A DNA stretch of 64,000 nt from Lachnospiraceae bacterium. GTDB lineage: Bacteria > Bacillota > Clostridia > Lachnospirales > Lachnospiraceae. A program made the position numbers and the translations under genes. The notes under the pieces are model-generated. The model did not search any database and had not been told where the DNA came from. It saw nothing but the letters and a program-made list of their open reading frames with translations. The stretch is from NCBI GenBank assembly GCA_017476665.1, contig JAFUZJ010000040.1, positions 1 through 64,000 of the forward strand, in the 5' to 3' direction. Below are positions 2,338 through 63,537 of the stretch, in pieces (position 1 is the stretch's first letter; every line of letters starts with the position of its first letter).

Positions 2338-2338
2338 T

Positions 2339-7097: not shown

Positions 7098-7137
7098 TTA
7101 TATCGCATTGCGCAATAACGAGTCAATGGCAAATATA
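7098..7137 (-). promoter_or_regulatory. Promoter of the Rpn-family gene
   Basis: On the minus strand a -35 TTGACT and a -10 TATAAT are 18 bases apart. The spacer carries the palindrome ATTGCGCAAT. The gene starts about 40 bases further on with a GAGGAGG site. Confidence 0.55.
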
Positions 7138-7163
7138 AACAAAAGGCGCGAAAACATTTCCGC

Positions 7164-7192
7164 TTGAATCCCGCGCTCCGGTCATCTATACT
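7164..7192 (+). promoter_or_regulatory. Promoter of the second CgeB-like gene
   Basis: There is a -35 TTGAAT (7164-7169), a 17-base spacer and a -10 TATACT (7187-7192) upstream of the only intact plus-strand gene. Confidence 0.6.
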
Positions 7193-7227
7193 ATAAAAGG
7201 ATGTATCACATAAAAAGGAGTTCCCGC

Positions 7228-43575: not shown

Positions 43576-44187
43576 TCAATCAAGATAAATCTGATCCACC
43601 ACAATATATCTGCCATCAACCAGCTCTATTACCTTAACATCGTTCTCAAGCACTTCCAGTATATCATTTATTTTTCGATTCGTCCACTCATCTTCCCAAT
43701 ATTCCTTCAAATATTCACGAATCGCAGGTTTAATCGTTTCGGTTGCATACACAGTATTGCAAAAATAATATTGTCTGAATAAAAACTCATAGATCAAAGC
43801 TGAATCAGCATCTAATTTATGTACAAAACCGTTTAAGAAAAATACCAATAAAATGATAAGTTTTATGGAAACAGAATCCGCATCTATAATTTCATATAAA
43901 GATAGAATCTGCCCCAACATTTCTGTCAAATTCAATTTCTTAGCCTTTACAACCACAATATCCCCGTGAAAACTTTTAACAGATGCCCTCGTTGTTACAG
44001 ACTCAACTTGTGCAGACTCTAATTCCAACTGAACTGCGTGGAAGAAAGCCTCTACTGCTGTATGTATTTCCGTCTCATCTATCCCACACATGGCATGAAG
44101 CATCTCTTGGTACAACACTTCTTCTATCTGCTTACTATTCCAGCCTAACAGTTCCCGTTTTTCTTCTGTACTCATTTCACACCGCAT
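43576..44187 (-). CDS. Unknown helical protein of the CHAT operon
   Basis: 203 residues. The first ATG (44187) has GCGGGG 5 bases upstream and follows the CHAT gene stop by 11 bases. An ATG at 44175 is possible. Helix-rich, with a hydrophobic stretch VSIKLIILLVFFLNGFV (about 106-122) that could be a membrane helix or a buried core. It ends in a beta-hairpin-like VKVIELVDGRYIVVDQIYLD. No domain recognised. As third gene of the unit it could be an effector, substrate or regulator of the CHAT protease. Confidence 0.7.
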   Translation of the reverse strand: MRCEMSTEEKRELLGWNSKQIEEVLYQEMLHAMCGIDETEIHTAVEAFFHAVQLELESAQVESVTTRASVKSFHGDIVVVKAKKLNLTEMLGQILSLYEIIDADSVSIKLIILLVFFLNGFVHKLDADSALIYEFLFRQYYFCNTVYATETIKPAIREYLKEYWEDEWTNRKINDILEVLENDVKVIELVDGRYIVVDQIYLD

Positions 44188-44198
44188 TTGAACCCCGC

Positions 44199-47100
44199 CT
44201 ATAAAATTTCAAACATATAGCAATCTGCATCTTCGTAAAATGGGATATCGTCATCATTATAATTTTTCAGTTTATCTGCAAAACCCAATTTTAGAAACAC
44301 TCCCAATTTCAAAATCTCTCCCTTTGTGATATTCCGCATAACCTGCTGGGTTGACGCAAACGCCTCGATCAGATTTCCTTCCTGATAAACATGCTCGTAA
44401 AAGCATATGGCAAAAAACAACGCAGCCCAGTCTTCCACCTCGGCAAATGTGCTGACACAGCATTGAGCACCTGCTAACCTAGCTCCCTCGCGAAGTCCAC
44501 CCAACGTCATATCCATCCCACTTGCGCATGCAGAAAACACTACCAACTTTACATTGCTCCAATCATATTTTGCCACATCATCCAAATATAAGACTCTCTC
44601 TTTTCCATCACTCCTGATACAGATTCCGGTTGGTTCCTCCTCCGATGCGTTGCTGGTATGTGTCGAAAAATGTAACACCACATTCCCGGAATCGTTCAAT
44701 ACATCATCTGAGATATCCTTATCGCACATCCCCCTCGCAGAAAACTTTTTCGCCAGATATCGTATTTCAGATTGTACCGTTGATAGCCGCTGTCTATATG
44801 TTTGAACAGATGACTGTATCTCTTCCTCAAATCTCGAATATCCTATAAAAAGCGACCTCGAAAGCTCAGATTTTGTAATTTGGGGGTTACACTTCATATC
44901 ATTCATACAGCTGATATACACGATCTGAAAGCAATCTGAGACTTCCGTCTCGTACGTCCCCCACAGTGCAAAGGGATAAGCCTCTGTCAACAGATTCATG
45001 CTGAAATAAATCGTTTTTACATCCTCTCTGCACTGTAATACTTTGCGCACATAATTCTCTCGCATGTTCCAATCCCTTTCCTCATAACCGTACCAAATCC
45101 TTAGGCTTAATTCTTTCTGTAGGTTATAAAAGACTTCTGTGTGCATTTTTCCGTTTGAATCTTTTATCGCCAGAAAACAAACCTGCGTGATCTTGTGCTC
45201 CATATCAATTTGCCCATCATCTGTTAGCGAGCCAAAATCCGTCAACGTATAGTCATACATTTCCAAGACAAGACTATATGTTTTCAGCGCCTCGTCCATT
45301 TCCCATGTCTTAATCAGCTTCAGCGTTTCTTCCAATCTGTCTGGCTCACGATATGCAACTTTATATAAGTATTTACATTTTGCAATGCAGGAACACAGGT
45401 ATTCTTTTTGATCTCTCAATCCATCCAACTGCATAACAGCCGATATAAACAATGCCATATATTGCTGTGCTTCTGTCAGGTACTGCTCATTTCTTTTCAT
45501 ATAATATCGCTGAAACATCTCTTGGATATTATTCTCCCATATTTCCTCTGCCAGCCTACAGAGCCTTTCATCATCATGGTCATATGCTGCCAGTCGAAAC
45601 TTGATAGAATAGGCAAATGCCCCGCTATTGCTTTTCTGTGCCCTGCAAGAGAAGTAATCATCCAAACTTCTCATATATCTATATGCAACGGTCTCGTCAT
45701 TCAGATAATGGTGTTTCAATATTTTTATCTGCAAATATTGTACATATCCCTCAGCTTCCGGATTTCTTTCAAAATATGTATCCAACTCATTCTCAAATTC
45801 AAAGGGAAAATACTCTTTGTCCCTAAGCATTTTCTTTAGATAAAAATTACATTGAAAGATCATTTCATTTGTCTTATTATACAACTTCTCTTGATTTTTT
45901 ACCACTTGCTTCAACTGAAATATTTGAAAACTATCCACCTTATCACCTGTAGGATATATTCCCATGGCATTATTTTTAACCAATGAAAACGAGCGCGGAT
46001 ATACCTCCGGGTGTGCCGCTACTTTTCCGAGAATTTCATCAAACTCTTCCTGTACATCATAGCCTAGTCTAGCTTCTACAAGTAGACCATTCGCTTTGCA
46101 CAGCACACCAAAGTCACTATCTTCATCATAATAATTACCACATATCTCCATTCCTGTCCTACAGTTTTCTATCGCAAGATTTTCTTCCCCTATTTCCACA
46201 TAATACAGTGCGCATAGCATATAAAACGAAATCCTGTCCTCCGCGCTTTCCGCATCTTGACCCACTATCTGCACAAGCTCTTTTCCTACGTTGATACATA
46301 CTGATATTTCGTCCTTCAATCCCAGTTTGTAGGAAATCTCCATGATTTGAACCAGACAATGCAGCTTCCCCTCCGGAACCGTTATGGCGTAAAATGCTTT
46401 TGTCAGACCGGGAATTGCATCTCTGCCTCTTCCCAAATTCCTGAACATAAGCGCATGTATCAGTTCAATAGAGAGTTTTAGCGCTTCCTGGGTCTCTGCT
46501 GAAGCCTGTTTCAACATGTTTTCACAATCATATACATCCTTTCGGAACCGTTCAAAGGATATCTTTTTGGCATCCCAAAGCATACTCCTAAGCGAAAGGG
46601 AGGTTGTATAATATATTGCTTCATCTATTAAATTCTCCTGAAATGACTCGTGATATCTCTCAAATTCTTCTATGGCAAAATCCGGCACCACCGGAATAAA
46701 ATATAAATATATGAATGCACACCAGTTTCTGCAAAACCAAAAACCATTCCGCCCCCATATCTCTAAATAATAGTGTCTTAACTGCTGCACATAATGGGGC
46801 GCATCTAATCCCATCGCATGTACAGCAGAAGCGATATTTACATGCATACCAACGAGCTGATCTGGGTATTCCCTTCCCGAGTTAACAAAATGCAGATAAA
46901 TTTCGCTCAGCATCGCCTCCTCCAGCTCATTGATATAACCATTTTGCATTGCTTTTTGGTTTACATTTGCGTAGTCACACATACAATACTGAAGCTCTGT
47001 ATCCGCCAACAATATCATTTCTCTGTTCGCTGTTTCTAATAATCTCCCCAGATCGTCTGCATATCGTTCAACAAATACAGCACCTTTGTCATATACGATG

Positions 47101-47204
47101 TCCAGTTTTTGCTCTTGCATCTCAAGAAATTCGCACAGAACCACCCCAGCTAAAAAGCCATCTTCCAGCCACTGTTCTTTTACCCTGTCCGTGTTAAATT
47201 CCAT
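44199..47204 (-). CDS. CHAT-domain (caspase-like) protease
   Basis: 1001 residues. The long N-terminal part (about 1-800) is helical and TPR-like. The C-terminal CHAT domain has the catalytic His849 in VVLHFSTHTS and Cys893 in LVVFSACASGMD, 44 residues apart as is usual, followed by GLREGARLAGAQCCVSTFAE and the last helix-strand pair. CHAT proteases cut specific proteins after activation by a partner, for example Csx29 (TPR-CHAT) with type III-E CRISPR. No CRISPR array is present here. It is flanked by a 56-residue Cys-rich gene upstream and an unknown 203-residue gene downstream, in one operon. The protease assignment is secure. The trigger and target are unknown. Confidence 0.88.
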   Translation of the reverse strand: MEFNTDRVKEQWLEDGFLAGVVLCEFLEMQEQKLDIVYDKGAVFVERYADDLGRLLETANREMILLADTELQYCMCDYANVNQKAMQNGYINELEEAMLSEIYLHFVNSGREYPDQLVGMHVNIASAVHAMGLDAPHYVQQLRHYYLEIWGRNGFWFCRNWCAFIYLYFIPVVPDFAIEEFERYHESFQENLIDEAIYYTTSLSLRSMLWDAKKISFERFRKDVYDCENMLKQASAETQEALKLSIELIHALMFRNLGRGRDAIPGLTKAFYAITVPEGKLHCLVQIMEISYKLGLKDEISVCINVGKELVQIVGQDAESAEDRISFYMLCALYYVEIGEENLAIENCRTGMEICGNYYDEDSDFGVLCKANGLLVEARLGYDVQEEFDEILGKVAAHPEVYPRSFSLVKNNAMGIYPTGDKVDSFQIFQLKQVVKNQEKLYNKTNEMIFQCNFYLKKMLRDKEYFPFEFENELDTYFERNPEAEGYVQYLQIKILKHHYLNDETVAYRYMRSLDDYFSCRAQKSNSGAFAYSIKFRLAAYDHDDERLCRLAEEIWENNIQEMFQRYYMKRNEQYLTEAQQYMALFISAVMQLDGLRDQKEYLCSCIAKCKYLYKVAYREPDRLEETLKLIKTWEMDEALKTYSLVLEMYDYTLTDFGSLTDDGQIDMEHKITQVCFLAIKDSNGKMHTEVFYNLQKELSLRIWYGYEERDWNMRENYVRKVLQCREDVKTIYFSMNLLTEAYPFALWGTYETEVSDCFQIVYISCMNDMKCNPQITKSELSRSLFIGYSRFEEEIQSSVQTYRQRLSTVQSEIRYLAKKFSARGMCDKDISDDVLNDSGNVVLHFSTHTSNASEEEPTGICIRSDGKERVLYLDDVAKYDWSNVKLVVFSACASGMDMTLGGLREGARLAGAQCCVSTFAEVEDWAALFFAICFYEHVYQEGNLIEAFASTQQVMRNITKGEILKLGVFLKLGFADKLKNYNDDDIPFYEDADCYMFEIL

Positions 47205-47214
47205 ATATGTTCTC

Positions 47215-47385
47215 CTACTTCATCAGCATATCCATTAAATCGTCAAAATTCCGATCAAATGCCCATGAGTTAATCCTGTCTACAAAATGTTCACATACTT
47301 GCTCCTGGAGATTTGAATTTCTTACTTTCCTGATACAGTTATCATTCACACAGAAAATGCAACTGTTGCATTCCTTTTCTTCCAT
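47215..47385 (-). CDS. Small Cys-rich protein, first gene of the CHAT operon
   Basis: 56 residues, starting MEEKECNSCIFCVNDNCIRK and ending FDDLMDMLMK. AAAAGGAG lies 7 bases before the ATG and the stop is 10 bases before the CHAT start, so a real operon gene is likely. Four cysteines in the first 17 residues (CNSC, FC, NC) could bind a metal or a cluster. It could be a sensor or an inhibitor of the CHAT protease. That is inference. Confidence 0.7.
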   Translation of the reverse strand: MEEKECNSCIFCVNDNCIRKVRNSNLQEQVCEHFVDRINSWAFDRNFDDLMDMLMK

Positions 47386-47418
47386 ATAGGTACTCCTTTT
47401 CCATCCCTGTTGTTTAAT

Positions 47419-48647
47419 TAGTGTCTGCTCATTAAAACCCGATACAAATGCATAACTCTGACATCGCGTTTTTGAGTGGTTTTAATTTCCACTTGTACCT
47501 TAAAAAAAGTCCCAGTCCATAACAACGCTTCGCCAGACTGAATCCCCTCTCAACTTCGATCCGGTCTGTATTATCAGTGTAGGACTGCTTCTTTTCCTCA
47601 GAAGTCATCTACTTTGGTCTGCCCAATGCTGGACCGGACAACCGTATCCCTTTTTTCTTACAATACGCCCTGTTTTTCCGCGTCCTGTATATCCATCTGG
47701 TCAGCCAGAACTTTTTCGGGATACCTTCCTGTGCGGGCATGATATCTTTCAACTACATCGATGAGAACATCACATTCATTATAGGCATCAAATGACAGCT
47801 TTTCCAATCTTGCAAGCCCTTTCTCATCAATGCTCATGTCAAGCTTTGCACCAAATTCGACCGGGGACTTTGCTTTCCCCTGACGATTGGGCGGATATAC
47901 GGCTGGCTGATGCTCACGATCCTGTCCTTTTATCGTCAATGAGACCTTCCAGATTCTCGCGGGCTTCATTCAGGAGATTGATGTCCTGTGGATAAGCTAT
48001 CTCCTGCGGTGCGCATGTCGAGTCCAGAATCAGGGTGCCTTTGTTTTCGGCAGGTGTATCATCACCTTTCCCATTCCCGCCGGAACCTCCTGACGGCGGA
48101 TCATCATCCGGAGTGTTGTATGCGATGATCATTGCATTGATGTCTCCAAGAATGTCATCTGTAAGACGTTTCCGGAACTCCACCAAAAGCGATGGAACGA
48201 AAGGTTCTTCGTCTTGCTATCCGGGAAGTCCGATGAAAAACTGGTAATACAGGTTCTCACGGATCTGCTCCACCAGTTCCCTGTCCGAATATTCATACTG
48301 CTTCTGGATGATAAGTGAACCAAGAGCTGTGCGCAGCGGCTTGGCCGGCATTCCTTTTTTACTAGGGAACAGCGCAGCGTACTTTTCCCCAATCTCATTC
48401 CATGGAATAGTAGCGACCTTTTTCACCCAACGGTTGTCCGGATTCATCTTCAAGCCGATGGACTGGTTAAAATCTGAAAGTTTGAACTGGTGGTTTCTAT
48501 CGAATTTATACATTTGCCATCTCCAAAGTGCAAGGTTTTTGAAAGAAAGTGCTGTTTTTCATGCACTTATATTATATCAGATAGTAGCTATAAAGTCAGT
48601 ATTTTCAAGGGTTTCTATCAATTTTTGTTTGCGTTAAGCAGACACTA
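47419..48647 (-). mobile_element. IS5/IS1182-type insertion element, decayed
   Basis: Ends are marked by an 11-base inverted repeat, TAGTGTCTGCT at 47419-47429 and AGCAGACACTA at 48637-48647. Length is about 1.23 kb. It sits about 33 bases upstream of the small Cys-rich gene and cuts the reading frame at 48648-48848. A clear target duplication was not found. Confidence 0.75.
47430..48513 (-). pseudogene. Transposase of the IS5/IS1182-type element, broken
   Basis: It begins MYKFDRNHQFKLSDFNQSIG at 48513, reaches YYQFFIGLPG and meets an in-frame TAG at 48217-48219. The same frame then continues QDEEPFVPSLLVEFRKRLTD to RENLEGLIDD. After a deletion and a frame change come GKAKSPVEFGAKLDMSIDEK, HARTGRYPEKVLADQ and, in another frame, GIRLSGPALGRPK, then NTDRIEVERGFSLAKRCYG. 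At least one stop, one large deletion and several frame changes make it inactive. Confidence 0.8.
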
Positions 48648-48848
48648 TTTTATGATTTCAATACCCTGGTTAAATCTTTCTGCTACTTCATCAAACAGAT
48701 CCCCACCTTCTTCTTTGATTGATTCCATCGTTGAAAGTTCGTCGCAGAACCACTTCACGCCATCCCTGCTCCTGAAAGACATGACCTGGTGAGCCTTGCG
48801 CTTAAATTTCCTAGCAAGGCGTTCCGCTGCATTTTTGTGGACACCACC
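48648..48848 (-). pseudogene. C-terminal remnant of an unknown gene cut by the IS
   Basis: After a TAG near 48849 the minus strand is open without a start codon: KRGGVHKNAAERLARKFKRK, then HQVMSFRSRDGVKWFCDELS and FDEVAERFNQGIEIIK. Its stop TAG is formed by the inverted repeat of the insertion element. Basic start and acidic end. Family not recognised. Confidence 0.5.
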
Positions 48849-48912
48849 CCGTTTCTATTCTTTCTATTATACAACTATGATTTTTATTGCAAGCATCATA
48901 CCGGCAAACAAG

Positions 48913-50190
48913 TTAATCACCTATAAGATATGGTTCTTTTAACAATTCTCCAACCGTATTTATCCCCCTCAAAGTGTTTGTATACATTCTGCTTTCGCAA
49001 CTATAATAATTCTCTCGCGCCACAATACTATCCATGGCACATTTGTAGTGCTGCATTGCGCTTTTCCCCATCTCACGATAAAGTTCATCTTCTTTATCTC
49101 GTGAGATTTCACATACCATTCTTTCACTGATATTTCCCATATAATACTGTACCTTGGCATAATCTACATGGTCTTGTGTTATCTCTTCTTCCGCCCGGCA
49201 CATGCATGCATACGCCAAAAGCAGGAAATCATTCCGATATTTTTTCAATTCTACCCTGTTAGCAGCTTCTACGTATAGTTGATAATAGGTTTTTCCATTA
49301 TAGAATGCCATATCATGTACATCCATTATTACCGGTTCCTCTACGGAATTCAGATTAATGGCACCATACTTTAAAAATTCCTCATCCCGGTATATAGCTT
49401 CGGCTGCCATATTGACCAGATTTCCAGTCTCCAACTCATAGTGTCCGATTTCCACAACATCCCGGGCTGCTCTTGCACTGTGATATAAGCAGCGCGGGGA
49501 ATGATTATTCTGATACAGAATGTCCCATTTCTGGAATAATGATAAGCTGTCATCCAGAGAGTTGGAATCTAATTCTTCTATACCTTGCCTAGTTTCTCTC
49601 ATGGTATGCAGCGTATCCTCATCTAATTCCACATTCGAATCCACAGTCAAATTTCCCATCCTGTAAAAGGGAATAGTCATTTTCTCGTAATATGAAATAG
49701 ACGATTCCGTTATTTCAGGAGTACCCTCGCCTAATATATGAAGCTTGATCAGCACCTCCTCCGGCACATCAGACAGGCGATGACTATCCTCGCCACCCTC
49801 AGCTTCATTCTGCTCCTCCCCTGACTGTACCACTTCATTTTCTTGACTTATTTTAAATAGTTCGGAAATCTCCTTCTGCGTTGCAATTTTGTTCTTTACA
49901 TATTTGTATTCTGTGTCTGCATATCTCCAGTCAAACACAAGGAAAAGTAGTCCACATAGCACAGAGACTGCAGATAGAACAGCTCCTATAGTCAAGTGTA
50001 TTTTTCTGATTTTGCCTTCTTTTGTCAAAATTGATTTTATCTTTTTGATTTTCTTTCTTAATTTTCGATTGCCTTTATTCTTTTTGTAATAAAAACCCGC
50101 CAGCATAAAAATCGCAATATAGGACACACAAAGAAAGCCTGCAAGCAGTGCTATTATCCCGAATATACTGTTTGCCATATCGTGTAGCAT
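48913..50190 (-). CDS. Two-helix membrane protein with helical domain
   Basis: 425 residues, start behind GAGGTG. Two membrane segments lie at about 8-32 (FGIIALLAGFLCVSYIAIFM) and 66-88 (LTIGAVLSAVSVLCGLLFLV), with a basic loop between them. A low-complexity acidic linker follows, then a long helical domain with a TPR-like look (YHSARAARDVVEIGHYELET, YAKVQYYMGNISERMVCEIS). No catalytic motif seen. Second gene of a two-gene operon with the protein at 50218-50922. A membrane sensor or effector is possible. Confidence 0.7.
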   Translation of the reverse strand: MLHDMANSIFGIIALLAGFLCVSYIAIFMLAGFYYKKNKGNRKLRKKIKKIKSILTKEGKIRKIHLTIGAVLSAVSVLCGLLFLVFDWRYADTEYKYVKNKIATQKEISELFKISQENEVVQSGEEQNEAEGGEDSHRLSDVPEEVLIKLHILGEGTPEITESSISYYEKMTIPFYRMGNLTVDSNVELDEDTLHTMRETRQGIEELDSNSLDDSLSLFQKWDILYQNNHSPRCLYHSARAARDVVEIGHYELETGNLVNMAAEAIYRDEEFLKYGAINLNSVEEPVIMDVHDMAFYNGKTYYQLYVEAANRVELKKYRNDFLLLAYACMCRAEEEITQDHVDYAKVQYYMGNISERMVCEISRDKEDELYREMGKSAMQHYKCAMDSIVARENYYSCESRMYTNTLRGINTVGELLKEPYLIGD

Positions 50191-50217
50191 TCTCGTGTGT
50201 CACCTCATCTCATTGCG

Positions 50218-50922
50218 CTAATACAGCGCGGAAATTTCATCTGCGATTGTATTTATAAATAATGCTATTTTCTCATCATCCCGGAAGTTCTCGGAATCTT
50301 CTTTTGTTATAATATATTCCACATCATATAATCGGTCTTTTACAGTTTTACTGTGTACATCATAATCGGAAACTATACCGCTTGTCTCTATAATACATAA
50401 TCTTTTTTCATAATTTCCATTCTTCGTCTCATAACTTACCCCGGCTACTGTACTGATGTATATATTGATTCTATCATCTAATTCCTGTCTGGAAATTCCA
50501 GATCCTGCATTCAACAAGGATTCTATCACTTCTTGTTCGATATACTTTTGTATTTCCTGTGTGTATCCTTTACGACAAATTTTTGCCTTGCATGTATTTT
50601 CTTGGTCAAAATGAATGATCTCATTTTCAAAATATCCGTTTACATAGATCAACAATATGATATAGTCATCAAACTGAACTACAACTTGTGGCCGCAGATG
50701 TAACATAATGCTTCTAAAATCCCGATCTACAGAAAAATTTAAAATTTCCCCATCAGGAATGCATTTTATCTGCGGTTCAGCAAACCATCCGCTATATATA
50801 TTCGAAAACACATTATATACAATATCACCACCTAAAAAATCTGCTATTTTAATGCCAAACAATATAATGATTCCAGCAATTCCAATTTTTTGAATTTTCG
50901 TCTTTTTCTTTTCATCTGCCAT
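50218..50922 (-). CDS. Single-pass membrane protein of unknown function
   Basis: 234 residues from the ATG at 50922, with GAGG at 7 bases. The frame to 51003 runs through a terminator-like hairpin and is not used. A membrane segment at about 13-27 (GIAGIIILFGIKIADF) is followed by a soluble domain of alternating strands and helices. The end is acidic. It pairs with the membrane protein downstream (27-base gap). Confidence 0.7.
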   Translation of the reverse strand: MADEKKKTKIQKIGIAGIIILFGIKIADFLGGDIVYNVFSNIYSGWFAEPQIKCIPDGEILNFSVDRDFRSIMLHLRPQVVVQFDDYIILLIYVNGYFENEIIHFDQENTCKAKICRKGYTQEIQKYIEQEVIESLLNAGSGISRQELDDRINIYISTVAGVSYETKNGNYEKRLCIIETSGIVSDYDVHSKTVKDRLYDVEYIITKEDSENFRDDEKIALFINTIADEISALY

Positions 50923-50939
50923 ACCGTTTCCTCGCACAA

Positions 50940-50990
50940 AAAAACCTATATGCAAAGCCAAGTAAACTGCAGCCTCACACATAGGTTTTT
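50940..50990 (-). terminator. Terminator-like hairpin
   Basis: Arms AAAAACCTAT/ATAGGTTTTT, 10 bases each, are separated by 31 bases. On the minus strand the second arm runs into a T7 tract. It separates the regulator gene from the membrane-protein pair. Confidence 0.5.
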
Positions 50991-51070
50991 CCTGATCACC
51001 CATTACAAATCCCTATCATCCTACCGCATCCTGTGCTTTGTCATTCCAATTTCCTCTCACGTGTTTCAAT

Positions 51071-52113: not shown

Positions 52114-52320
52114 AAGGGGCTATAAAAAAGAACGCTTTCAGGCATAAAACCTGGAGGCATTCTTTTTGTTTGCTATAATTATTCTGTGATGAATAATACC
52201 AGAGATTATTATAGTCCAAAGCAGGGAAGATTTCCACTATTTATCACAGCTATTCTTGATATTTGTGATCCGGTACTGGCGTTTGACAAGATCATGGAAG
52301 ATATCGGATTTTGCAGATCT
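52114..52320 (+). pseudogene. IS1182-type transposase N-terminal fragment
   Basis: The plus-strand frame from 52186 reads MMNNTRDYYSPKQGRFPLFI, then DPVLAFDKIMEDIG, the N-terminus of IS1182-family transposases, and then leaves the family near 52315. The rest of the element is gone. The hairpin at 52125-52167 lies in the element end. Confidence 0.7.
52125..52167. terminator. Bidirectional terminator hairpin
   Basis: AAAAGAACGCTTTCAGG pairs with CCTGGAGGCATTCTTTTT around a loop CATAAAA, with a few G-T pairs. T runs flank it on both strands. It would stop read-through from the TIR operon. Confidence 0.65.
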
Positions 52321-52327
52321 CTATTTA

Positions 52328-53146
52328 CTACTCCCATACAACACAATACTCAATACTTCCATAAGTATTTGGCTGCAAATAATATAAACGGCTCCAACCT
52401 TCAACTCCATTTGCAGTATAAATATATACCCACGGTTCCACTCGTTCATCTGCTTCTGCAAAAGCAAGTCTCCCCTGCCAAGTAACCTCATCATCATTTT
52501 TCAAGCTTTCGAGTCTATTTCCCTCAAGAGACGGGATATCTCTGACTAGCAATGAAGTTTTTACTCCCGTGACTATGAGTGTTAGTTTAATACCCTTGAC
52601 TGTTTCTAGCCCTAATTCATTCTCTTCTATTTCATCCTGTTCTTCATCAATTTCGGACATTGACATCCGCGACACAATAGTGTCTGACTTTTTGAGCCAA
52701 TTTACAAGCTGCTCCTCCGTATACATATAAAAAGAATTACCTATATTGACCAGCGGTACATTCATTTCTATATAAGATGGTATTACTATATATACCACAC
52801 ACACGATATATATTAGTATACATATGGGTGTATTAAGAGTTTCATAAGAATGCCATTTTTTATACCAACTTTCTAATGTATTGTCAATTGTCTTACCAAT
52901 CTGCTCATGATAATTATCTATTTTTGAGAACAAGCCACCGATTCGTTTATGCATTTTTTCCATAGGAAACTCAATTATGCAAAATACACATCTATAAAAT
53001 TTCTGCAGTAAAAATGGCAAGACCGAAAATATAAAAAATATTATTTTTCCAAACAACTTATATAACAATACTATCAGTAAGAATAGTAAAATAGCAGCTC
53101 TAATCCACATTGGCAATAAACAAAATTTGCTTAATATTGTATTCAT
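52328..53146 (-). CDS. Membrane protein with C-terminal SH3b domain, TIR operon
   Basis: 272 residues. Hydrophobic segments at about 15-30, 34-56 and 107-126 place the N-terminal half in the membrane. The C-terminal 196-260 stretch (KTSLLVRDIPSLEGNRL ... WVYIYTANGVEGWSRLYYL) fits a bacterial SH3 fold, a likely protein- or wall-binding module. Fourth gene of the TIR operon, 12 bases after the SPFH-like gene. Topology suggests an effector or anchor at the membrane. Confidence 0.75.
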   Translation of the reverse strand: MNTILSKFCLLPMWIRAAILLFLLIVLLYKLFGKIIFFIFSVLPFLLQKFYRCVFCIIEFPMEKMHKRIGGLFSKIDNYHEQIGKTIDNTLESWYKKWHSYETLNTPICILIYIVCVVYIVIPSYIEMNVPLVNIGNSFYMYTEEQLVNWLKKSDTIVSRMSMSEIDEEQDEIEENELGLETVKGIKLTLIVTGVKTSLLVRDIPSLEGNRLESLKNDDEVTWQGRLAFAEADERVEPWVYIYTANGVEGWSRLYYLQPNTYGSIEYCVVWE

Positions 53147-53158
53147 TTCTTTTATATC

Positions 53159-54046
53159 CTATGAATAAAATTCTTCCATTCCTGTATCTTCTGTCGTACT
53201 ATCATGAATATTTTCATCGACTTGTTGAATCTGCTTTGCGACTCCTACTTCACTAAGTATAGGGTTTATTAAAACTCTGGCTTCCCGATCTGTAATAAAT
53301 CCTTTATTTCTAAGTTCATCAAGATGTTCAACATGTTCTTTATAATTCATCTCATTATATTCTCTGATTTTTTTTGCTGCCTCTACTTCTGATATTTTTC
53401 CTTCTGCAATTTCTGTCATAATTGCATCTATATAGTCTCCCGTATAGGATGAATTTGCCAACCCTCTCGCGTGTTTCTTCAGCATAGCATCTAATTTTTG
53501 CTGATCCTGCTGTTTCACATATTGCTCTGCTTCTTTACCTGGTTTTGCTGAAACAACTGAAATTTGATAACTGAATCCCGTAGACTCCTCAAATGTGTTA
53601 TACGCAGATAATTTCTGCGTCAATTCCTCGTCCATTCCAACATAATCCAAAATGCTGTATCGTTGTGTAATCTTTCTGACATCCAGTGAAAACAAGTTAT
53701 CAAAATAAGCATCTACATCTATATTTCTATTTTCGTAGAAAACAATGGGATCCTTCACACATATGGTAGCCTTTACATACACATCAAAAGAATAGAATGT
53801 TTCCTGGCTGGGCGAATTAAAGCGGATTTCTTTTAAATATGTCTTTGTAGATATTTCTACCAGCTGCGTATACTTTCCCTTTCGAATTTCTTTTGTTGTC
53901 GTATGATCAGTGACAAGTATATCGTCATTACATCCTCCGGTCAGAATAAAAGCCGACCCTCTTTTCCCAATATTAGGTATCTTTGGAAAAAAACTATTCT
54001 CATATGCCTCTTCCTTGATAATTAATTTATTTTCAAATTCATTCAT
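53159..54046 (-). CDS. SPFH/Band-7-like protein, TIR operon
   Basis: 295 residues from the ATG at 54046, which overlaps the end of the upstream gene by 8 bases. The longer frame to 54166 lies wholly in that gene. Residues about 50-180 have the strand-rich band-7 pattern (TYLKEIRFNSPSQETFYSFD, YVKATICVKDP, RYSILDYVGMDEELTQKL). A coiled, charged C-terminal part follows, with FITDREARVLINPILSEV. SPFH proteins form large ring assemblies at membranes. The family call is moderate. Confidence 0.6.
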   Translation of the reverse strand: MNEFENKLIIKEEAYENSFFPKIPNIGKRGSAFILTGGCNDDILVTDHTTTKEIRKGKYTQLVEISTKTYLKEIRFNSPSQETFYSFDVYVKATICVKDPIVFYENRNIDVDAYFDNLFSLDVRKITQRYSILDYVGMDEELTQKLSAYNTFEESTGFSYQISVVSAKPGKEAEQYVKQQDQQKLDAMLKKHARGLANSSYTGDYIDAIMTEIAEGKISEVEAAKKIREYNEMNYKEHVEHLDELRNKGFITDREARVLINPILSEVGVAKQIQQVDENIHDSTTEDTGMEEFYS

Positions 54047-55526
54047 GCAGCTTTGCTCCTCTCTTTTCATAAGTAAGCCGTAAGCGTGTAAAAATCTGCT
54101 TAGTCGCTTTATTATTATAAGTTCTAAAAAAATATAAGATATCTTGGCAATACTGTTGTGATTCACCTCCCATATTATAGAAATAAGCCGAAATATGATC
54201 TATCGTTTTATCAGAATAATCGTATCTGGATAATTCTTTCAAATATGCCTTGAGAATTGCATACAATTGTTTACGTAAGTGATAAACTGACATTGTACAT
54301 TCTACAACCTTTGCAAGTTGTTTTTGTTGCTGTAATGTATCACACACTACCAATGGCAATTCCATAAAATCTGAATTGACCTGGTAATAACTATATCTAA
54401 CAAAATTAATATATGTCTGAGCAATCTTCAGCCTTCCATCCCTCGTTCTCGTATTGTTTAATGTATCACCAAAAATATTACAAAAGAGACTTCTTAATTC
54501 TTGTGATTGCCTTAAAAGGCTAGAAACAAATACCAAATCTTCCTTTTTGAAATATAAAATTCTTTTTCGTATTGCTTTTTTTAAATCTGGCACATAGGGG
54601 AATACAATTTTACTATTTGAAAATGCCGCACAGGTCAGGCAAACCGCCTTCCAAAGCCATTTGCTATCTGAACTAACCCAGCAGAGAATAATATTTTCCG
54701 CATACTCCTTTGATTGACTATCCATGTACAGCTTATACACAATAATTCCTAAGATACCTGCATTTTTAGGATCAGATAATAGCCGCGGAAAAATATGTGT
54801 TCCTGCATAAAGAACATCCAATGAAATAATTCTTGTCAACGCATTGGCCATTTGATAAGCGTCAAAAGTTGTATGAAACTGATAAATCTCGTTTAGCTCC
54901 ATGAGCCATAATACAATGGGATTTTTAAGCGTCGGAAATTGCTCTAATATATTACACAAGACCTTTTGAGAGCCACTTCCAAATCCTACACCTATTCTTC
55001 CGTCAGCAATAACAAATTTTCTTCCTCCAATCAATGATAAAATTGTATTTAACGCAATATATGAATCAGAATTAATATTTTCTTCCACCGCTTGCTCACT
55101 ATTTAAGGTTTTCGTTTTAGGAATATGTCTAACAAGTATTTCCCGCAAATTTATAAGATCACTCAATGCCACTACCTCAAAAGTACTTAAGATAATAGCT
55201 ATTGTCAAATATTCACTATCCTTATATTTCTCAACAAACTGTACACACTTTTCGGTGTTACATAAATCATATTCTTCTTTCACTTTCACTTTTGATTCTG
55301 ATACCGTTTTTTTAAAACCTTGATCACTCCCCATACTCAAATTACTTAAATTTTGCACAAATATTTGAGTATACCCCATATTTCCAATTGCATTAAAGCG
55401 ATTTGCTGTACGTTTAAGCTCCTCCAGATCAGCTGGATTATCAATTGTCTCTCTTTTTTCTGCCTCTGTCTGATTATTTTCAGCAAAATTACTTGGCTGC
55501 TCCATTTCTTCACTTGTATCATTCAT
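54039..55526 (-). CDS. Large helical protein, TIR operon
   Basis: 495 residues, overlapping the TIR gene stop by 4 bases. N-terminal 40 residues are acidic and disordered. The rest is helix-rich (YLTIAIILSTFEVVALSDLI, LLSDPKNAGILGIIVYKLYM) and ends in basic helices RRLRLTY-like KQIFTRLRLTYEKRG. No nucleotide-binding or nuclease motif recognised. It could be the sensor of the system. No recognised family. Confidence 0.68.
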   Translation of the reverse strand: MNDTSEEMEQPSNFAENNQTEAEKRETIDNPADLEELKRTANRFNAIGNMGYTQIFVQNLSNLSMGSDQGFKKTVSESKVKVKEEYDLCNTEKCVQFVEKYKDSEYLTIAIILSTFEVVALSDLINLREILVRHIPKTKTLNSEQAVEENINSDSYIALNTILSLIGGRKFVIADGRIGVGFGSGSQKVLCNILEQFPTLKNPIVLWLMELNEIYQFHTTFDAYQMANALTRIISLDVLYAGTHIFPRLLSDPKNAGILGIIVYKLYMDSQSKEYAENIILCWVSSDSKWLWKAVCLTCAAFSNSKIVFPYVPDLKKAIRKRILYFKKEDLVFVSSLLRQSQELRSLFCNIFGDTLNNTRTRDGRLKIAQTYINFVRYSYYQVNSDFMELPLVVCDTLQQQKQLAKVVECTMSVYHLRKQLYAILKAYLKELSRYDYSDKTIDHISAYFYNMGGESQQYCQDILYFFRTYNNKATKQIFTRLRLTYEKRGAKLHE

Positions 55527-56047
55527 AAATTAATGTTCCCTTCCATCGTTTGAATGAAAAACTGTTTATCTGACTTATTTCCTATAATATTCATTCCACA
55601 ATTGGGGATTTCTGATGTTTCCCCCCCTCTCTTTGATGCTTCTATTTTTCCAGCAAGATGGGAAGCAATAACAGCCGGATCTGCAGACTTAAAGTAGTTT
55701 GTATTTTTAGGATCAAATAAATCTCTTGGCAGTTCTGTTTCATCAAGGTAAATAGGGATCACCTTCCCTAAATTTCCTTTTTTAGCAAAAGCAATTCTTG
55801 CTTCATCCATAGGTGTTTTCTTGGAAATATAATCCTTAGATATAAACAACGCTACATAATCAGCATTCATGCCAAAAATACTATAAAAAATTTCCTGTTG
55901 GTTTTTACCGCTCAAAATCATCTGTCCTTCCTGGGAAGGAGCAAAAAATACTTTTATTTCTTCAGCTTTCAAATAATGGTATACACTCTCTACCAAAGCT
56001 TCATTTTCAGTTGCGAATGAAAGGGCAATATCGAATTGATAATTCAT
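55523..56047 (-). CDS. TIR-domain protein
   Basis: 174 residues, GGAGG 8 bases before the ATG. The TIR fold fills about 1-135: FDIALSFATENEALVESVYH (first strand and helix), VFFAPSQEGQ (BB-loop region), ADYVALFISKDYISKKTPMD and EARIAF. Glu82 in MDEARIA is at the place of the catalytic glutamate of TIR NADases. A short C-terminal tail follows. TIR proteins in phage defence cleave NAD or make signalling nucleotides from it. First gene of a tightly coupled four-gene operon, so it is probably the effector or signal maker of that unit. Confidence 0.85.
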   Translation of the reverse strand: MNYQFDIALSFATENEALVESVYHYLKAEEIKVFFAPSQEGQMILSGKNQQEIFYSIFGMNADYVALFISKDYISKKTPMDEARIAFAKKGNLGKVIPIYLDETELPRDLFDPKNTNYFKSADPAVIASHLAGKIEASKRGGETSEIPNCGMNIIGNKSDKQFFIQTMEGNINL

Positions 56048-56108: not shown

Positions 56109-56137
56109 ATTTTAGGCCATTGGCTATATTTTGTCAA
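56109..56137 (-). promoter_or_regulatory. Promoter of the TIR operon
   Basis: On the minus strand there is a consensus -35 TTGACA (56132-56137), a 17-base spacer and a -10 TAAAAT (56109-56114), about 60 bases before the TIR start. The operon is therefore self-standing and probably expressed constitutively at a fair level. Confidence 0.7.
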
Positions 56138-56224: not shown

Positions 56225-56258
56225 AAAAACGCTTAAACCGTGCGATTTAAGCGTTTTT
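56225..56258. terminator. Bidirectional terminator
   Basis: A perfect 13-base stem AAAAACGCTTAAA/TTTAAGCGTTTTT with an 8-base loop. It marks the left end of the AAA pseudogene and isolates the TIR operon from the flagellar side. Confidence 0.75.
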
Positions 56259-56641
56259 GACTTTCACTAATATAACAATCAAATTTATCTACACCGGGCA
56301 ACCTCTCCTCCTTGCATGCCCGCTCATAAAGATGCTCACCAATCTTTTCATCATTATACACAAGTATATATTCTATTTTTGATATCTGTCTGCCAAATAC
56401 ATTGAGATACCGCCTTTGCACAATTGCCTGTAAAAATTTGTCCTGCGGAAACTCTAATATCTTCAGCCATTCTCCTCGAACTGATCACTTTACTCCGCGC
56501 ACTTGAATCGCCTTGACTTCCCTCTATTAGGATTCTTTCAACCTTGGTATCATTCCGACCGCAGATAACTGTCAGCCCGTCAAATTTTACCTCTGCGTGT
56601 TCGATTTTCGCGATATTGTCAATAACAAGCTTCATATACAT
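56233..56641 (-). pseudogene. Remnant of an OLD/SMC-like AAA ATPase
   Basis: It starts MYMKLVIDNIAKIEHAEVKF with DGLTVICGRNDT, which is the start of an SMC-type or OLD-type ATPase up to the Walker A loop. The loop is then broken (GRNDTKVERI in place of GKST). A second frame near 56421 resumes with RRYLNVFGRQISKIEYILVY and a C-terminal CKEERLPGVDKFDCYISESQ. Most of the gene is lost. It may be a dead defence ATPase. Confidence 0.65.
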
Positions 56642-59960: not shown

Positions 59961-60767
59961 TTAGCCGAGCAGAGAAAGTACACCCTGATTGGACTGGTTA
60001 GCCTGTGCCAACATTGACTGTCCTGCCTGAGCAAGGATGTTGTTGTTGGAGAACTTAACCATCTCAGTCGCCATATCGGTATCACGAATAGCGGACTCAG
60101 CACTGGTGGTATTCTCGACTACGTTGTTGAGGTTGTTGATTGTGTGCTCCAGTCTGTTCTGGATAGCACCCAGATTAGCTCTCTGCTGGTTCACAGCTGC
60201 AATAGCAGACTTAACATTAGTATTCAATGTGCCTGCAGTAGTAGCAGAAGTCACACTACCGGTCAAGCCAATAGCAGAACACTTCATGGATCTAATGGAC
60301 AACTCAATACGCTGATTCGTCTCAGCACCAACCTGAAGCGATGCAGATCCAGAACCGGTAAGCAGATTCTTCTCATTGAAGGTCGTGGTAGAAGCTACAC
60401 GATCAATTTCACTCATCAACTGCTTTACTTCGCTGTTGATATAGGTGCGATCACTAGCTGTCAGAGTACCATTCTCACCTTTAACTGCCAGTTCATTGAT
60501 ACGCTGAAGCATATCATGCACTTCGTTCAGAGCACCTTCTGCTGTCTGCACCATGGAAATACCATCCTGTGCGTTAGCAGAAGCCTGAGTCAGACCTCTT
60601 ACCTGACGTCTCATCTTCTCGGAAATAGCCAGACCTGCTGCATCATCTGCTGCACGGTTTACTTTGTAACCGGAAGACAGTTTCTCGGTGGACTTAGCCT
60701 GTGCACTAGCGGTCAAGCCAAGCATTCTGTTAGAGTTCATAGCTGTTAAGTTGTGTTGTACTACCAT
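59961..60767 (-). CDS. Flagellin
   Basis: 268 residues from the ATG at 60767, with GGAGG. The N-terminal D0/D1 block MVVQHNLTAMNSNRMLGLTA, the NRAADDAAGLAISEKMR motif (about 38-54) and the C-terminal ILAQAGQSMLAQANQ with LSLLG are intact. The central region between them is short, with a Ser/Thr/Ala-rich stretch TGSVTSATTAGTLNTN that could bear glycans. Short flagellins lacking outer domains are usual in clostridia. It has its own SigD-type promoter and forms the filament after export. Confidence 0.95.
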   Translation of the reverse strand: MVVQHNLTAMNSNRMLGLTASAQAKSTEKLSSGYKVNRAADDAAGLAISEKMRRQVRGLTQASANAQDGISMVQTAEGALNEVHDMLQRINELAVKGENGTLTASDRTYINSEVKQLMSEIDRVASTTTFNEKNLLTGSGSASLQVGAETNQRIELSIRSMKCSAIGLTGSVTSATTAGTLNTNVKSAIAAVNQQRANLGAIQNRLEHTINNLNNVVENTTSAESAIRDTDMATEMVKFSNNNILAQAGQSMLAQANQSNQGVLSLLG

Positions 60768-61116
60768 AATTTTTTCCTCCTTGAATTGAAAGACTCCTTC
60801 CTTGGAGCCAGTTTGTTTTGATTTGTCGCTGATTCGCGGTTCGCACAAGCCGTTCTATCAGCAAACGCTACAGTAACCTTTCACCATTGTGCGGATGGCT
60901 TCCGGTTGCTTACATTGATTATATCGGACGCAACTCCAAAAACTTTATAGCATTTTACAGATTTTTCCGAAATTTTTCAAAAGTTTCTGTTAGTTTCGTC
61001 CTTTATGTCATTATATCAATTATTGATTCAGATTTCAAGTACTAATTTCTGTGCTCCATGCCTGCAACAGCGCAATATATTGTGGTCATGCCAAGAGCGA
61101 ATTAGTACAAATGATT
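60768..61116. other. Upstream region of flagellin
   Basis: 349 bases without a gene. It holds the SigD-type promoter, a long leader of about 150 bases with an AT-rich upstream part, and the end of the FlgN-like gene. No riboswitch-like pattern was recognised. Confidence 0.5.
60921..60947 (-). promoter_or_regulatory. SigD/sigma-28 type flagellin promoter
   Basis: On the minus strand TAAA (60944-60947), 15 bases, then TCCGATAT (60921-60928). This matches the consensus TAAA-N15-GCCGATAA of SigD. It explains late, separate expression of flagellin. Confidence 0.8.
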
Positions 61117-61590
61117 TTATTGCTTGTTATCCATGATTCTGGATGTGGAATAGGCTATTCCGCTCATGCTCTTATAATAATCATATGCAGCCTTGGATGT
61201 CTGCCGATTCTGTTTAAGGTCATTCCTTGTCTTAGCGAAATAGTCCTCCACTAGCTTTTTATTGCGCATCTCCTGCGCCTGAATGGATACACTCAGTTCT
61301 GTCACTTTCGCAATCTTCTCCTGCAGTTCCCTGATTTGTGACGCATATTGAACTTTATTATTCTGCAATTCCTGCGCAAGATTTTCATAAAGTGCTTCAA
61401 AACCATCATCAAGCCGGTCTAATTCATCAATCAGCTTGTCTTTCTCCTCGAAACCTCTATCAAACTCTTCCAAGTCCGCTGTCTCTTTTGAGAAAGCATC
61501 TGCCTGTAATTCATTAAATTTCTGAATCTCTCCGAGGATGTTAAGCTTTTGATCCAGGCTCTCAGACAAAATATTCAATCGATTCTGCAC
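61117..61590 (-). CDS. FlgN-like or FliT-like flagellar chaperone
   Basis: 157 residues from a GTG at 61590, which overlaps the TAG of fliS by one base with a GGAGG site before it. Almost all coiled helix (ELDRLDDGFEALYENLAQEL), with a C-terminal ASYDYYKSM-like AAYDYYKSMSGIAYSTS segment. FlgN and FliT type chaperones for hook or cap proteins have this plan and place, after fliS. Which of the two is not clear. Confidence 0.7.
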   Translation of the reverse strand: MQNRLNILSESLDQKLNILGEIQKFNELQADAFSKETADLEEFDRGFEEKDKLIDELDRLDDGFEALYENLAQELQNNKVQYASQIRELQEKIAKVTELSVSIQAQEMRNKKLVEDYFAKTRNDLKQNRQTSKAAYDYYKSMSGIAYSTSRIMDNKQ

Positions 61591-61976
61591 TATGCCTTTC
61601 CTCCCTCCTTGCCGACGCGCATGACTTCTTTCCAGTTATCACGCACAGAACGCAAATGGGTGTTGACCTCCTCCAGAATATCTTTGTCTTTCTTGATATT
61701 GGCCTCCACCAACCGTCTGGACAAATAGACATAAATGTTCTCAAAATCTTTTGCCACCGGATATTTCATATCCAGTGTTTCCCGCAGATAATCGATGATC
61801 TTCTGTACCTTGATGATATTGGTATGTGCCTTGGGGATATTATCCTCTTCTATGGCCGTTATCCCAATGTTGCAAAACTTGATGGCTCCCTCATAGAGCA
61901 TCAGCGTCAACTCTGCCGGGCTTGCCGTCATAATCTTATTATTCTGATATTGCGCATAGGGGTTTTGCACCGCCAT
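61590..61976 (-). CDS. fliS: Flagellar export chaperone FliS
   Basis: 128 residues. MAVQNPYAQYQNNKIMTASP at the start and ELTLMLYEGAIKFCN are the FliS signature. FliS binds the flagellin C-terminus and keeps it unfolded until export. The order fliD-fliS is normal for Firmicutes. Confidence 0.93.
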   Translation of the reverse strand: MAVQNPYAQYQNNKIMTASPAELTLMLYEGAIKFCNIGITAIEEDNIPKAHTNIIKVQKIIDYLRETLDMKYPVAKDFENIYVYLSRRLVEANIKKDKDILEEVNTHLRSVRDNWKEVMRVGKEGGKA

Positions 61977-61977
61977 A

Positions 61978-63537
61978 TCATGAACCTCCTAAAAGACCGG
62001 ATAATGCATTTGTTTTGCTTTGCATTTTCGCCATAGCGGCTTCCATCTTGGCAAACTTACTATACCACTTATCCTCATAATCGTTCAGCTTTTGCTCCAA
62101 ATCGGAAATCTTGCTGGTATAATCCTTGTAATCCGATGTCATTTTCTTATCATCATAGAAGCTGCCGAAACTCCGATAACCGTCCACAGACTTGGATTGG
62201 TCACTCATCTTTGAATACAGATTCTGTGCCATCTGAGTGAAGAACGAAATGACCGTATCCGGATTGCTGGCTATCATGCTCTTCAGTTTATCCGCATTGC
62301 CGGAAGTGCTGGCATCATCCGGATCGCCGTCAATATGGTATGCGTTCTTCTCATTGTCTGCTGATGTAAAGTATCCCAATGTAGCGATTCCAAAATCGGA
62401 TAAGTACATTTTTTTGCCATTCACATCGAAACCGCTAGACATAGCGTTCTTCAGCATAGAGCTGAGATCTGACAGATTGCTGTCGTTTCTGAGAAGGGAG
62501 TCTTTGATCTTCTTCTCATACTCAGTCACCTCTGTCTCAGACATTGCCTCTTTCTCTTCTGAAAGCAATGGATCGTATCCCGACGCTGAAGCAGCATTGT
62601 AAAGTTTATCCATCTCATTGATCACGGTATTGTATTCCTTCAGGAAATTCTTCACCATGTCATAGATTCCGTCTGTATCGGTCTCAGTGGTCAGGGTAAT
62701 GGGATTGTCCTTATCCGTCTTGGCAAGGGCCGTGATGGTCAGTCCGTTAATTTCGAATACATTGGTAGAATTGGTGAATTCCGCGCCGTTCAGCCTGATC
62801 TTGGCATCGCTGCCGGGCACTTTGCTGGCTGTTTTTCCATTGTCAAGCTTAACACCAAACTTCTCCTCTGCGCTTTTTTTCACGGTATCTGTCATAAGTC
62901 CCAACGCAGACAACGCCCTGGAACTGTTACCACCCGTCGCTTCAAGTGTAAAATCATTCGCCTTGCCGGATTCCTTCGCACTGATAAAGAATCTCTGGTT
63001 TTTCTCGTCGAAGCTCGCATTCAATCCGGCATCCTTAAATTTGTTCAGCACATCCGAGATAGACGTATCAGCGTCAAAGTCAATGTATTCCTCTTTTCCC
63101 TCTGTGGTGAGTTTGAATCTGCCCGAACCTGTGACGCCTAACTCCGACATCTTGGTCAATGCGGTATAGTTTCCGGTCTTACCGCTTGTGTTAGTCACTT
63201 CACCACCGGTCAAGTATGCTGTCTTAGCAAGATCTTCAATCTCCAGTTCCTGCACACTGTTCACAGCGCCGTCTCCGGTAATGACACTGGCCTTGCTGGA
63301 ATCAGAGACCTTCGTGGTTTTCTTTGCATAGGATGATGCAAAACGCAGATTGCTGACAAATTTGGACTGCAGGTTCTTTAACTTGGTATTCAGATCCTTC
63401 CATGCATCCTGTTTCCAGTTCGCCTTGATCTGCGCCTTTTTGGTTTTGTTCAGTTTGCTGCTTTTTGCCTCCACAAGCTGGGAGACTAAGCTCTCGGTAT
63501 CCATACCGGACATCATTCCCGACATACGAATTGCCAT
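61978..63537 (-). CDS. fliD: Flagellar filament cap protein FliD
   Basis: 519 residues, GGAGG before the ATG. The N-terminal FliD block MSGMMSGMDTESLVSQLVEA and the long C-terminal coiled part with SKISDLEQKLNDYEDKWYSK are typical. The D2 middle part has FEINGLTITALAKTDKDN. It makes the cap that adds flagellin at the filament tip. The 520-residue length is normal for the family. 1 base before fliS. Confidence 0.94.
   Translation of the reverse strand: MAIRMSGMMSGMDTESLVSQLVEAKSSKLNKTKKAQIKANWKQDAWKDLNTKLKNLQSKFVSNLRFASSYAKKTTKVSDSSKASVITGDGAVNSVQELEIEDLAKTAYLTGGEVTNTSGKTGNYTALTKMSELGVTGSGRFKLTTEGKEEYIDFDADTSISDVLNKFKDAGLNASFDEKNQRFFISAKESGKANDFTLEATGGNSSRALSALGLMTDTVKKSAEEKFGVKLDNGKTASKVPGSDAKIRLNGAEFTNSTNVFEINGLTITALAKTDKDNPITLTTETDTDGIYDMVKNFLKEYNTVINEMDKLYNAASASGYDPLLSEEKEAMSETEVTEYEKKIKDSLLRNDSNLSDLSSMLKNAMSSGFDVNGKKMYLSDFGIATLGYFTSADNEKNAYHIDGDPDDASTSGNADKLKSMIASNPDTVISFFTQMAQNLYSKMSDQSKSVDGYRSFGSFYDDKKMTSDYKDYTSKISDLEQKLNDYEDKWYSKFAKMEAAMAKMQSKTNALSGLLGGS

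Follow-up and report, generated by a model that had tools for sequence, protein, structure and literature searches.

In the amyloid signalling systems described in bacteria, short motifs are carried at the C-termini of effectors and at the N-termini of NLR proteins encoded by collocated genes (PMC12261475), and TIR and CHAT domains are among the effectors reported to use them (PMC7889193; this and the other papers cited by PMC number are represented here by excerpts). These motifs, the BASS of Dyrka et al. 2020, are taken here as described in PMC7889193, PMC8086366 and PMC12261475. We analyzed a 64,000-nucleotide stretch of a Lachnospiraceae genome (contig JAFUZJ010000040.1, positions 1 to 64,000, hereafter the window) and find in it an operon of four genes encoding a TIR protein, a helical protein, an SPFH-like protein and a membrane protein with an SH3b-like end. 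The operon resembles BASS in that a short motif lies at the C-terminus of an effector, here a TIR, which is a reported one, and again at the N-terminus of the protein encoded next to it. It differs in that the BASS partner is an NLR with a NACHT or NB-ARC NTPase, whereas the partner here is a predicted alpha-solenoid with no NTPase match, and in that BASS occur, according to the excerpted review, mainly in filamentous actinobacteria and cyanobacteria, whereas the operon's host belongs to the Lachnospiraceae. It also adds the SPFH and SH3b membrane genes to the BASS-like pair. Judged from the alignments, the tag pair has the BASS layout with a non-NLR partner, and its amyloid nature is a prediction.

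The effector-associated domain (EAD) principle and the VMAP and iSTAND conflict systems (PMC7159879, PMC8195603) likewise place the same adaptor element on a neighbouring effector and on a core protein. EADs, however, are folded domains, alpha-helical in nine of twelve cases, whereas the element found here is a tag some 20 residues long; domain scans of the operon matched none of the EAD-type core domains (MoxR, vWA, STAND, GTPase). The SPFH scaffolds (HflK/C, stomatin, prohibitin, erlin, flotillin; QmcA-YbbJ) resemble the third gene, in which an SPFH fold is followed by a long helical part, and they resemble the operon in having an adjoining gene for a small membrane partner; unlike them, the third protein has no hydrophobic anchor of its own, its partner ends in an SH3b-like region and it is tied to a TIR. 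The vault with TEP1 (PMC13174449) is also listed among the closest systems. Thoeris and other TIR anti-phage systems share with the first gene a TIR with a catalytic glutamate. As an identity for the whole operon Thoeris was rejected, there being no ThsA-type effector or nucleotide sensor recognised in it, and so were CBASS or Pycsar (none of the scanned genes matched a cyclase) and a toxin-antitoxin system (four conserved genes, the short antitoxin being absent). NCBIfam, PADLOC and PHROGs gave only weak partial matches to the operon genes and named no system, and among the best-ranked matches in the open literature we came across no description of a bacterial system that combines SPFH with TIR; the excerpts of PMC13239085 contain both, used apart. 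The locus is a combination of known parts that we have not found described, and the shared tag gives it a testable mechanism.

The genes and the sites within them are as follows, with coordinates in the window.

55523-56047, minus strand: TIR gene (gene 1), 174 residues, open frame
55802-55804, minus strand: codon of the predicted catalytic Glu82 of the TIR protein, kept in four of four operons
55526-55594, minus strand: C-terminal tag of the TIR protein, residues 152-174, core Q-F-F-I-Q at 162-166, separated from the TIR domain by a variable linker
54039-55526, minus strand: gene 2, helical, 495 residues, open frame
55341-55397, minus strand: N-terminal tag of the gene 2 protein, residues 44-62, core Q-I-F-V-Q at 54-58, within the low-confidence N-terminus
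53159-54046, minus strand: gene 3, SPFH-like, 295 residues counted from the ATG at 54046
52328-53146, minus strand: gene 4, transmembrane/SH3b, 272 residues, open frame

The original prediction, made from the window's sequence, had described four same-strand genes, two of the junctions being overlaps (4 and 8 bases) and the third a gap of 12 bases; the coordinates were checked and are as claimed, and all four frames are open. Gene 3 can also be read as a longer frame that begins with GTG at 54166. The complete block, in the same order and with genes overlapping or at most 12 bases apart, occurs in four genomes, namely that of the window, a Roseburia metagenome-assembled genome (locus L002), G1027 from another genus of the same family (L013) and G1203 from the window's own genus (L018), with pairwise identities of 28-65% among the four operons. 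As homologues of all four open reading frames stand in the same order in three further genomes, the frames are real genes beyond chance and form one operon.

Scanning genome contigs with gene 3 returned one locus, the Roseburia one, with all four genes ordered. Gene 2 matched the window and G1027 among 397 genomes of the family, the window and G1203 among 81 of the window's genus, and G1027 alone among 37 of its own genus, and both G1027 and G1203 carry the full ordered block. Gene 3, searched in genome sets that overlap, matched 2 of 250 family genomes (its own and G183). At the class level it matched 4 of 391 genomes, namely its own, G563 with a different SPFH system, and two whose matches were judged unrelated; a phylum-wide set of 398 gave one match, and a further family set of 329 gave two. 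The TIR subfamily (E <= 1e-5), searched in the 81 genus genomes and, outside the genus, in plasmids only, was found in exactly the same two of the 81 as gene 2, and in the genomes examined gene 2 was met solely alongside the other three genes (4/4 loci). The block is conserved in three further genomes, and within the scope of these searches neither of the outcomes that would have spoken against the original prediction, a TIR gene lacking the other three or a chance linkage of genes 2 and 3, was encountered. Relatives of genes 2 and 3 were absent from IMG/VR viral contigs, plasmid searches with gene 3, gene 2 and the G1027 gene 2 returned none, and neither did a phage search with gene 3, the only gene so searched. 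The operon is rare. Going by identity, genes 1 to 3 of the window group with those of Roseburia, and those of G1203 with those of G1027, although the window and G1203 share a genus; for gene 4 the window again pairs with Roseburia, and G1203 is not joined to G1027. These groupings, which rest on pairwise identity and not on a tree, point to a likely transfer between genera, as a unit at least for genes 1-3, and the four-gene module has probably spread horizontally.

The original prediction missed a short tag shared by the TIR tail and the N-terminal arm of gene 2, which offers a physical link between the two proteins. The motif N-x4-Q-[FIV]-F-[IVM]-Q is found on both proteins in all four operons, and a G precedes the N in six of the eight sequences. 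Given as TIR and then gene 2, the tags are GNKSDKQFFIQTMEG and GNMGYTQIFVQNLSN in the window, GNRAEKQVFIQTVNG and GNIANTQIFIQSLDK in Roseburia, RNRAETQIFIQNYNG and ENTAQIQIFVQNANF in G1027, and GNTGGTQFFIQNYNG and GNLGNIQIFMQNANF in G1203, so that in two sub-lineages matching variants occur on both sides (NYNG with NANF). Over the four operons the tag is the best 16-column match between the TIR and gene 2 alignments, scoring 32.6 compared to a mean of 16.5 and a maximum of 30.6 in column shuffles (0/1000); over three operons it scored 32.1 versus 14.0 for the next unrelated diagonal (0/2000 shuffles, maximum 29.6). None of the other five gene pairs is comparable, shuffles doing as well as the real alignments in 823 of 1000 cases (TIR/SPFH), 52 of 1000 (TIR/SH3b, the closest), 203 of 300 (gene 2/SPFH), 76 of 300 (gene 2/SH3b) and 91 of 300 (SPFH/SH3b). 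The same 19 columns were selected by hhalign (P 0.004, E 0.004). In ungapped comparison of three operons the tag comes out as the top match at 16 and at 19 residues in every one, and at 12 residues in two; in gapped local alignment of the Roseburia pair it is again the best, 37 of 2000 shuffles reaching it with whole proteins and 1 of 2000 with tail versus arm.

Conservation is concentrated in the tag. Over three operons, 37% of its columns are identical on either side, compared to 5% in the TIR linker before it and, in the gene 2 arm, 7% before and 0% after it; the corresponding values are 48% for the TIR domain and 26% for the body of gene 2. On the scales used, the tag core overlaps the most beta-prone 7-mer of tail or arm in 8/8 sequences and the most aggregation-prone one in 7/8. 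The core pattern has two occurrences among the 44,799 residues of the window's open frames of at least 60 residues, and both lie in the operon. As a DNA pattern in the whole genome the core pentapeptide gave 22 matches versus 5 for the reversed control; 12 of the 22 were read in context, and the 10 of these outside the operon lie in frames of 19-165 residues from which the extended motif is absent. The pentapeptide alone is not specific in the genome, and only the extended motif in its context was used.

Gene 1 carries a TIR domain, as had been claimed: it scores 46.5 bits with Pfam TIR_2 (cut-off 28, E 6.1e-12), and its Glu82, at the position that we take to be that of the catalytic TIR glutamate, is conserved in all four operons and aligns with a glutamate of a Priestia TIR protein. 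It is predicted to have NADase activity through this residue. Other searches added little detail, PADLOC giving a weak and partial match to the candidate PDC-S66 (E 8e-4) and a sequence search of the PDB a single weak match, 7uxr (E 0.39). The plasmid search with the TIR returned two distant TIR proteins, from Priestia and Nostoc; the Priestia protein, read in context and aligned, is without the C-terminal tag tail.

Gene 2 has no credible family match in Pfam, NCBIfam, PADLOC or PHROG. Its AlphaFold2 model has a mean predicted local distance difference test (pLDDT) of 67, with residues 1-83 below 50 and helices thereafter, and the N-terminal arm is probably disordered according to this model. 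Structure searches returned weak matches to folds of the ARM/HEAT type, including importin-alpha and designed armadillo-peptide proteins; the VIA-align matches lie within the chance range for helical repeats and name no family. From the model, gene 2 would be an alpha-solenoid and is predicted to act as an adaptor or sensor. PDB sequence searches yielded nothing useful for genes 2 and 3.

The SPFH-like assignment of gene 3 stands by fold, being supported by structure searches, although Pfam Band_7 stays below its cut-off (13.1 bits versus a gathering score of 23.6, E 0.1); gene 3 is an SPFH protein by fold that lies outside the curated Band_7 sequence family, and it is without a hydrophobic helix of its own. 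Gene 4 agrees with the SH3b membrane protein that had been described, having hydrophobic segments in its hydropathy profile near residues 10-57 and 108-126 and an SH3b-like C-terminal region at residues 201-257, which scores below the Pfam cut-off of 27 for SH3_3 (17.2 bits, E 0.0057); a divergent homologue of gene 4 in G183 (L004) reaches 26.3 bits against the same cut-off (E 8.7e-6). We also noticed that the C-termini of the SPFH proteins (window 53162-53203 and the gene 3 ends of L002, L013 and L018) carry, after a variable stretch, a similar short peptide of the pattern [ML]-x-x-[FL]-Y in acidic surroundings, aligned in all four; it is possibly a second docking tag, to judge from the alignment.

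We propose, tentatively and with somewhat less than even confidence, that the operon is a rare, probably horizontally spread immune module of four genes in which an SPFH assembly at the envelope and a solenoid adaptor recruit or nucleate, by means of the tag, a TIR whose NAD consumption stops infected cells. Gene 4 would anchor the unit in the cell membrane, its SH3b-like end probably facing the cell wall, and gene 3, which has no membrane helix, would assemble on it as a ring or cage. The gene 2 solenoid would sit on this scaffold as sensor or adaptor and display its tag on the flexible N-terminal arm, with the same tag on the C-terminal tail of the TIR. Clustering of the gene 2 arms may be set off by an event at the envelope, for example damage to the wall or the entry of phage DNA. 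The tags would then pair in a cross-beta or beta-zipper stack of the kind described for bacterial amyloid signalling, and this would nucleate the assembly of the TIR; the NADase activity through Glu82 would then deplete NAD and the cell would stop. We arrived at this order of scaffold, solenoid, tag switch and TIR executioner because the operon is laid out like an amyloid-signalling pair whose NLR is replaced by a solenoid, and because it contains two more genes that could hold this solenoid at the membrane. The integrity and conservation of the operon, the TIR domain, Glu82, the SPFH fold, the hydrophobic segments, the low-confidence arm and the shared tag are computed features. To these we add, by inference, the assembly at the membrane, the pairing of tags, the trigger, the NADase activity and the anti-phage outcome. 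In its most specific form, a membrane signalosome lacking any recognised NTPase in which an SH3b-anchored SPFH ring or cage and a solenoid adaptor template a TIR NADase through a new amyloid-type tag, the proposal is possible but doubtful.

TIR immunity is known to run through signalling nucleotides, through receptors of the NLR type or through direct recognition of phage proteins. The operon points to another route, in which an SPFH scaffold anchored in the envelope is combined with a short tag that matches between two proteins. If true, this would be, within the reach of our literature searches, the first case in bacteria of amyloid-type immune signalling that dispenses with an NLR receptor, and also the first phage-defence system to use an SPFH scaffold. 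It would further offer a bacterial counterpart to the vault, in which the TIR-like NADase TEP1 is housed. Whether NLR-independent pathways hold signalling amyloids is asked in the excerpted review (PMC7889193), and at this locus the question is testable, as the proteins are small and the two tags can be altered by point mutation. The functions of bacterial SPFH proteins are, in the excerpts of PMC12005517, mostly unclear, and the locus could give them a place in immunity.

Several observations weigh against this proposal. When only the window pair is aligned, locally and with gaps, the tag is the best match, yet 557 of 2000 shuffles reach it with whole proteins and 24 of 2000 with tail versus arm; the two cross pairs are reached by 372 and 603 of 2000 shuffles, and in 12-residue windows a different stretch outscores the tag in the window pair. 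The match is weak for that pair alone, and its strength lies in the four operons together. The probability figure of hhalign is low (8.4) beside its P of 0.004, the pLDDT values of 67 and 64 mark the gene models as of moderate confidence, and the AlphaFold model of gene 2 places a helix at residues 31-53 partly over the tag (pLDDT about 30). No NLR or other NTPase domain was matched in gene 2 or its Roseburia homologue, there are only four complete operons, two of them from one genus, and PADLOC recognises neighbours clearly at one of the four loci (L013). The defence context is suggestive but not uniform, and the function in phage defence is our inference.

The strongest rival is a switch like that of importin-alpha, whose N-terminal arm mimics its cargo peptide. 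The groove of the gene 2 solenoid would be filled at rest by its own tag and the TIR tail would compete for it, its release or binding controlling the TIR; no fibre would form, and the two tags would resemble each other since both bind one site. The shared tag is expected equally under such competition, the predicted build of gene 2, a low-confidence arm followed by an alpha-solenoid, suits it, and importin-alpha and designed armadillo-peptide proteins are among the weak fold matches of gene 2. Taken by itself we consider this switch doubtful, leaning to unlikely. The amyloid-type and the importin-like mechanism both start from the one shared tag, so that support for a link between TIR and gene 2 is stronger than support for either of them. 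A chance or compositional resemblance, with a TIR acting alone and four genes merely co-transcribed, would agree with the weakness of the window pair in the full-length shuffles and with the frequency of the core pentapeptide in the genome relative to its reversed control. Against it stand the four-operon shuffles, none of which reached the score, the tag's occurrence at the same positions in every operon and the lack of the extended motif at the 10 genomic matches outside the operon, and we regard it as very improbable.

Quite unlikely, in our judgement, is the order favoured in the original prediction, in which the TIR makes a diffusible nucleotide signal, as ThsB does in Thoeris, and the SPFH/SH3b complex is the membrane-damaging effector. 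TIR and membrane genes do share one operon, and one TIR homologue weakly matches the PADLOC ThsB model over 33 residues (E 8.3e-4), but sequence-level scans of genes 2-4, the only part of the genome covered for ThsA-like genes, gave no match to SIR2, SLOG or macro domains and none to a pore-former, and a diffusible signal would not need a tag joining TIR to gene 2. The shared motif shifts the likely logic away from a diffusible TIR signal and towards a tag-recruited TIR. An envelope-stress or surface-structure module, in which an SPFH ring and the SH3b protein tune the membrane or the flagellar or glycan machinery and the TIR is a regulatory NADase, is unlikely too. It would account for flagellin genes near both same-genus copies (by eye; window 59961-60848 and L018) and for the divergent SPFH/SH3b pair of L010 upstream of sugar-nucleotide genes (a ManC-type domain by Pfam, the others by eye), and an SPFH protein is described as connecting a phage-shock protein to the Bacillus subtilis membrane in the excerpts of PMC8581546. 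The sporadic presence of the operon (2/81 genus genomes) and the genus-crossing relationships of genes 1-3 fit an accessory conflict module better.

The signals flanking the operon are as follows.

56109-56137, minus strand: sigma-70-type promoter-like site, TTGACA-17-TAAAAT, matching 11 of 12 positions
56225-56258, minus strand: terminator-like hairpin with T-run upstream of the operon, RNA fold -16.6 kcal/mol, z -4.96
52125-52167, minus strand: terminator-like hairpin with T-run downstream of the operon, RNA fold -19.8 kcal/mol, z -5.10

The consensus promoter that had been claimed holds as a site, having the top score of the 31 promoter-like sites in the scanned region, but the number of such sites is not above the chance expectation (mean 25.8, sd 5.5). 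Both strong terminators were recovered by folding, 0 of 200 shuffles folding equally well in either case; a terminator consensus scan did not list 56225-56258 and listed 52125-52167 on the other strand only.

Just upstream of the operon, at 56354-56641, a frame of 95 residues matches the start of PD-T4-4_A with residues 3-32 (PADLOC E 2e-5) and looks, from its sequence, like a truncated AAA/OLD-like ATPase gene. After gene 4, at 52186-52327, the plus strand holds what by eye is the start of a transposase; this frame has no Pfam domain, and the stretch has no second copy in its own genome. To one side of the operon lie a helix-turn-helix gene, genes of no recognised family and a CHAT-domain gene (Pfam E 3.8e-18). 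The CHAT-domain protein has 1001 residues (44199-47204) and a neighbour of 203 residues, and past decayed transposase-like pieces at 47432-48513 (by eye) follow genes of 425 and 261 residues with hydrophobic stretches (by eye); the region 43576-51003 is a possible second conflict module beside the TIR operon. The G1027 operon is near a STAND-type NTPase with an LmuA-like N-terminus (E 1.2e-6) and a PDC-S22 candidate gene (E 1.2e-89), and the G1203 operon lies amid flagellin genes (by eye). Flagellin and flagellar chaperone or cap genes were seen by eye near both same-genus copies (window 59961-63537; L018 302-18326), with several flagellin copies on either side of the operon in L018, and the flagellin region may be an insertion hotspot. 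In Roseburia, where the neighbours belong mostly to no recognised family, the operon is directly followed (L002 7636-14144) by a protein of 1995 residues with, by eye, a histidine-kinase-like ATPase end, which had no match in Pfam (E <= 0.1) or PADLOC (E <= 0.01), and then by a receiver-like gene of 178 residues (by eye).

Some SPFH loci were not counted as complete operons. The two class-level matches L007 and L008 (E 2.4e-4 and 9.6e-4) were judged unrelated from their open reading frames, and the loci L004 and L010 of G183 hold divergent SPFH and SH3b genes at a contig start. Downstream of the L010 pair, at 2127-3797, one frame joins RVT_1 (E 7.3e-19) to a domain of the mannose-1-phosphate guanylyltransferase type (NTP_transferase E 7.2e-33), either a real fusion or an assembly joint. 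The large helical protein of G563 (L009) has only 15% identity to gene 2 and was not counted as its homologue. This locus, from another family, carries at 1686-8108 a four-gene block of its own, composed of a weak-TPR protein, a DUF4145 protein of 844 residues, an SPFH-like protein (Band_7 E 0.0023) and a small membrane protein with no SH3b match, which suggests that pairs of SPFH and membrane proteins serve more than one system.

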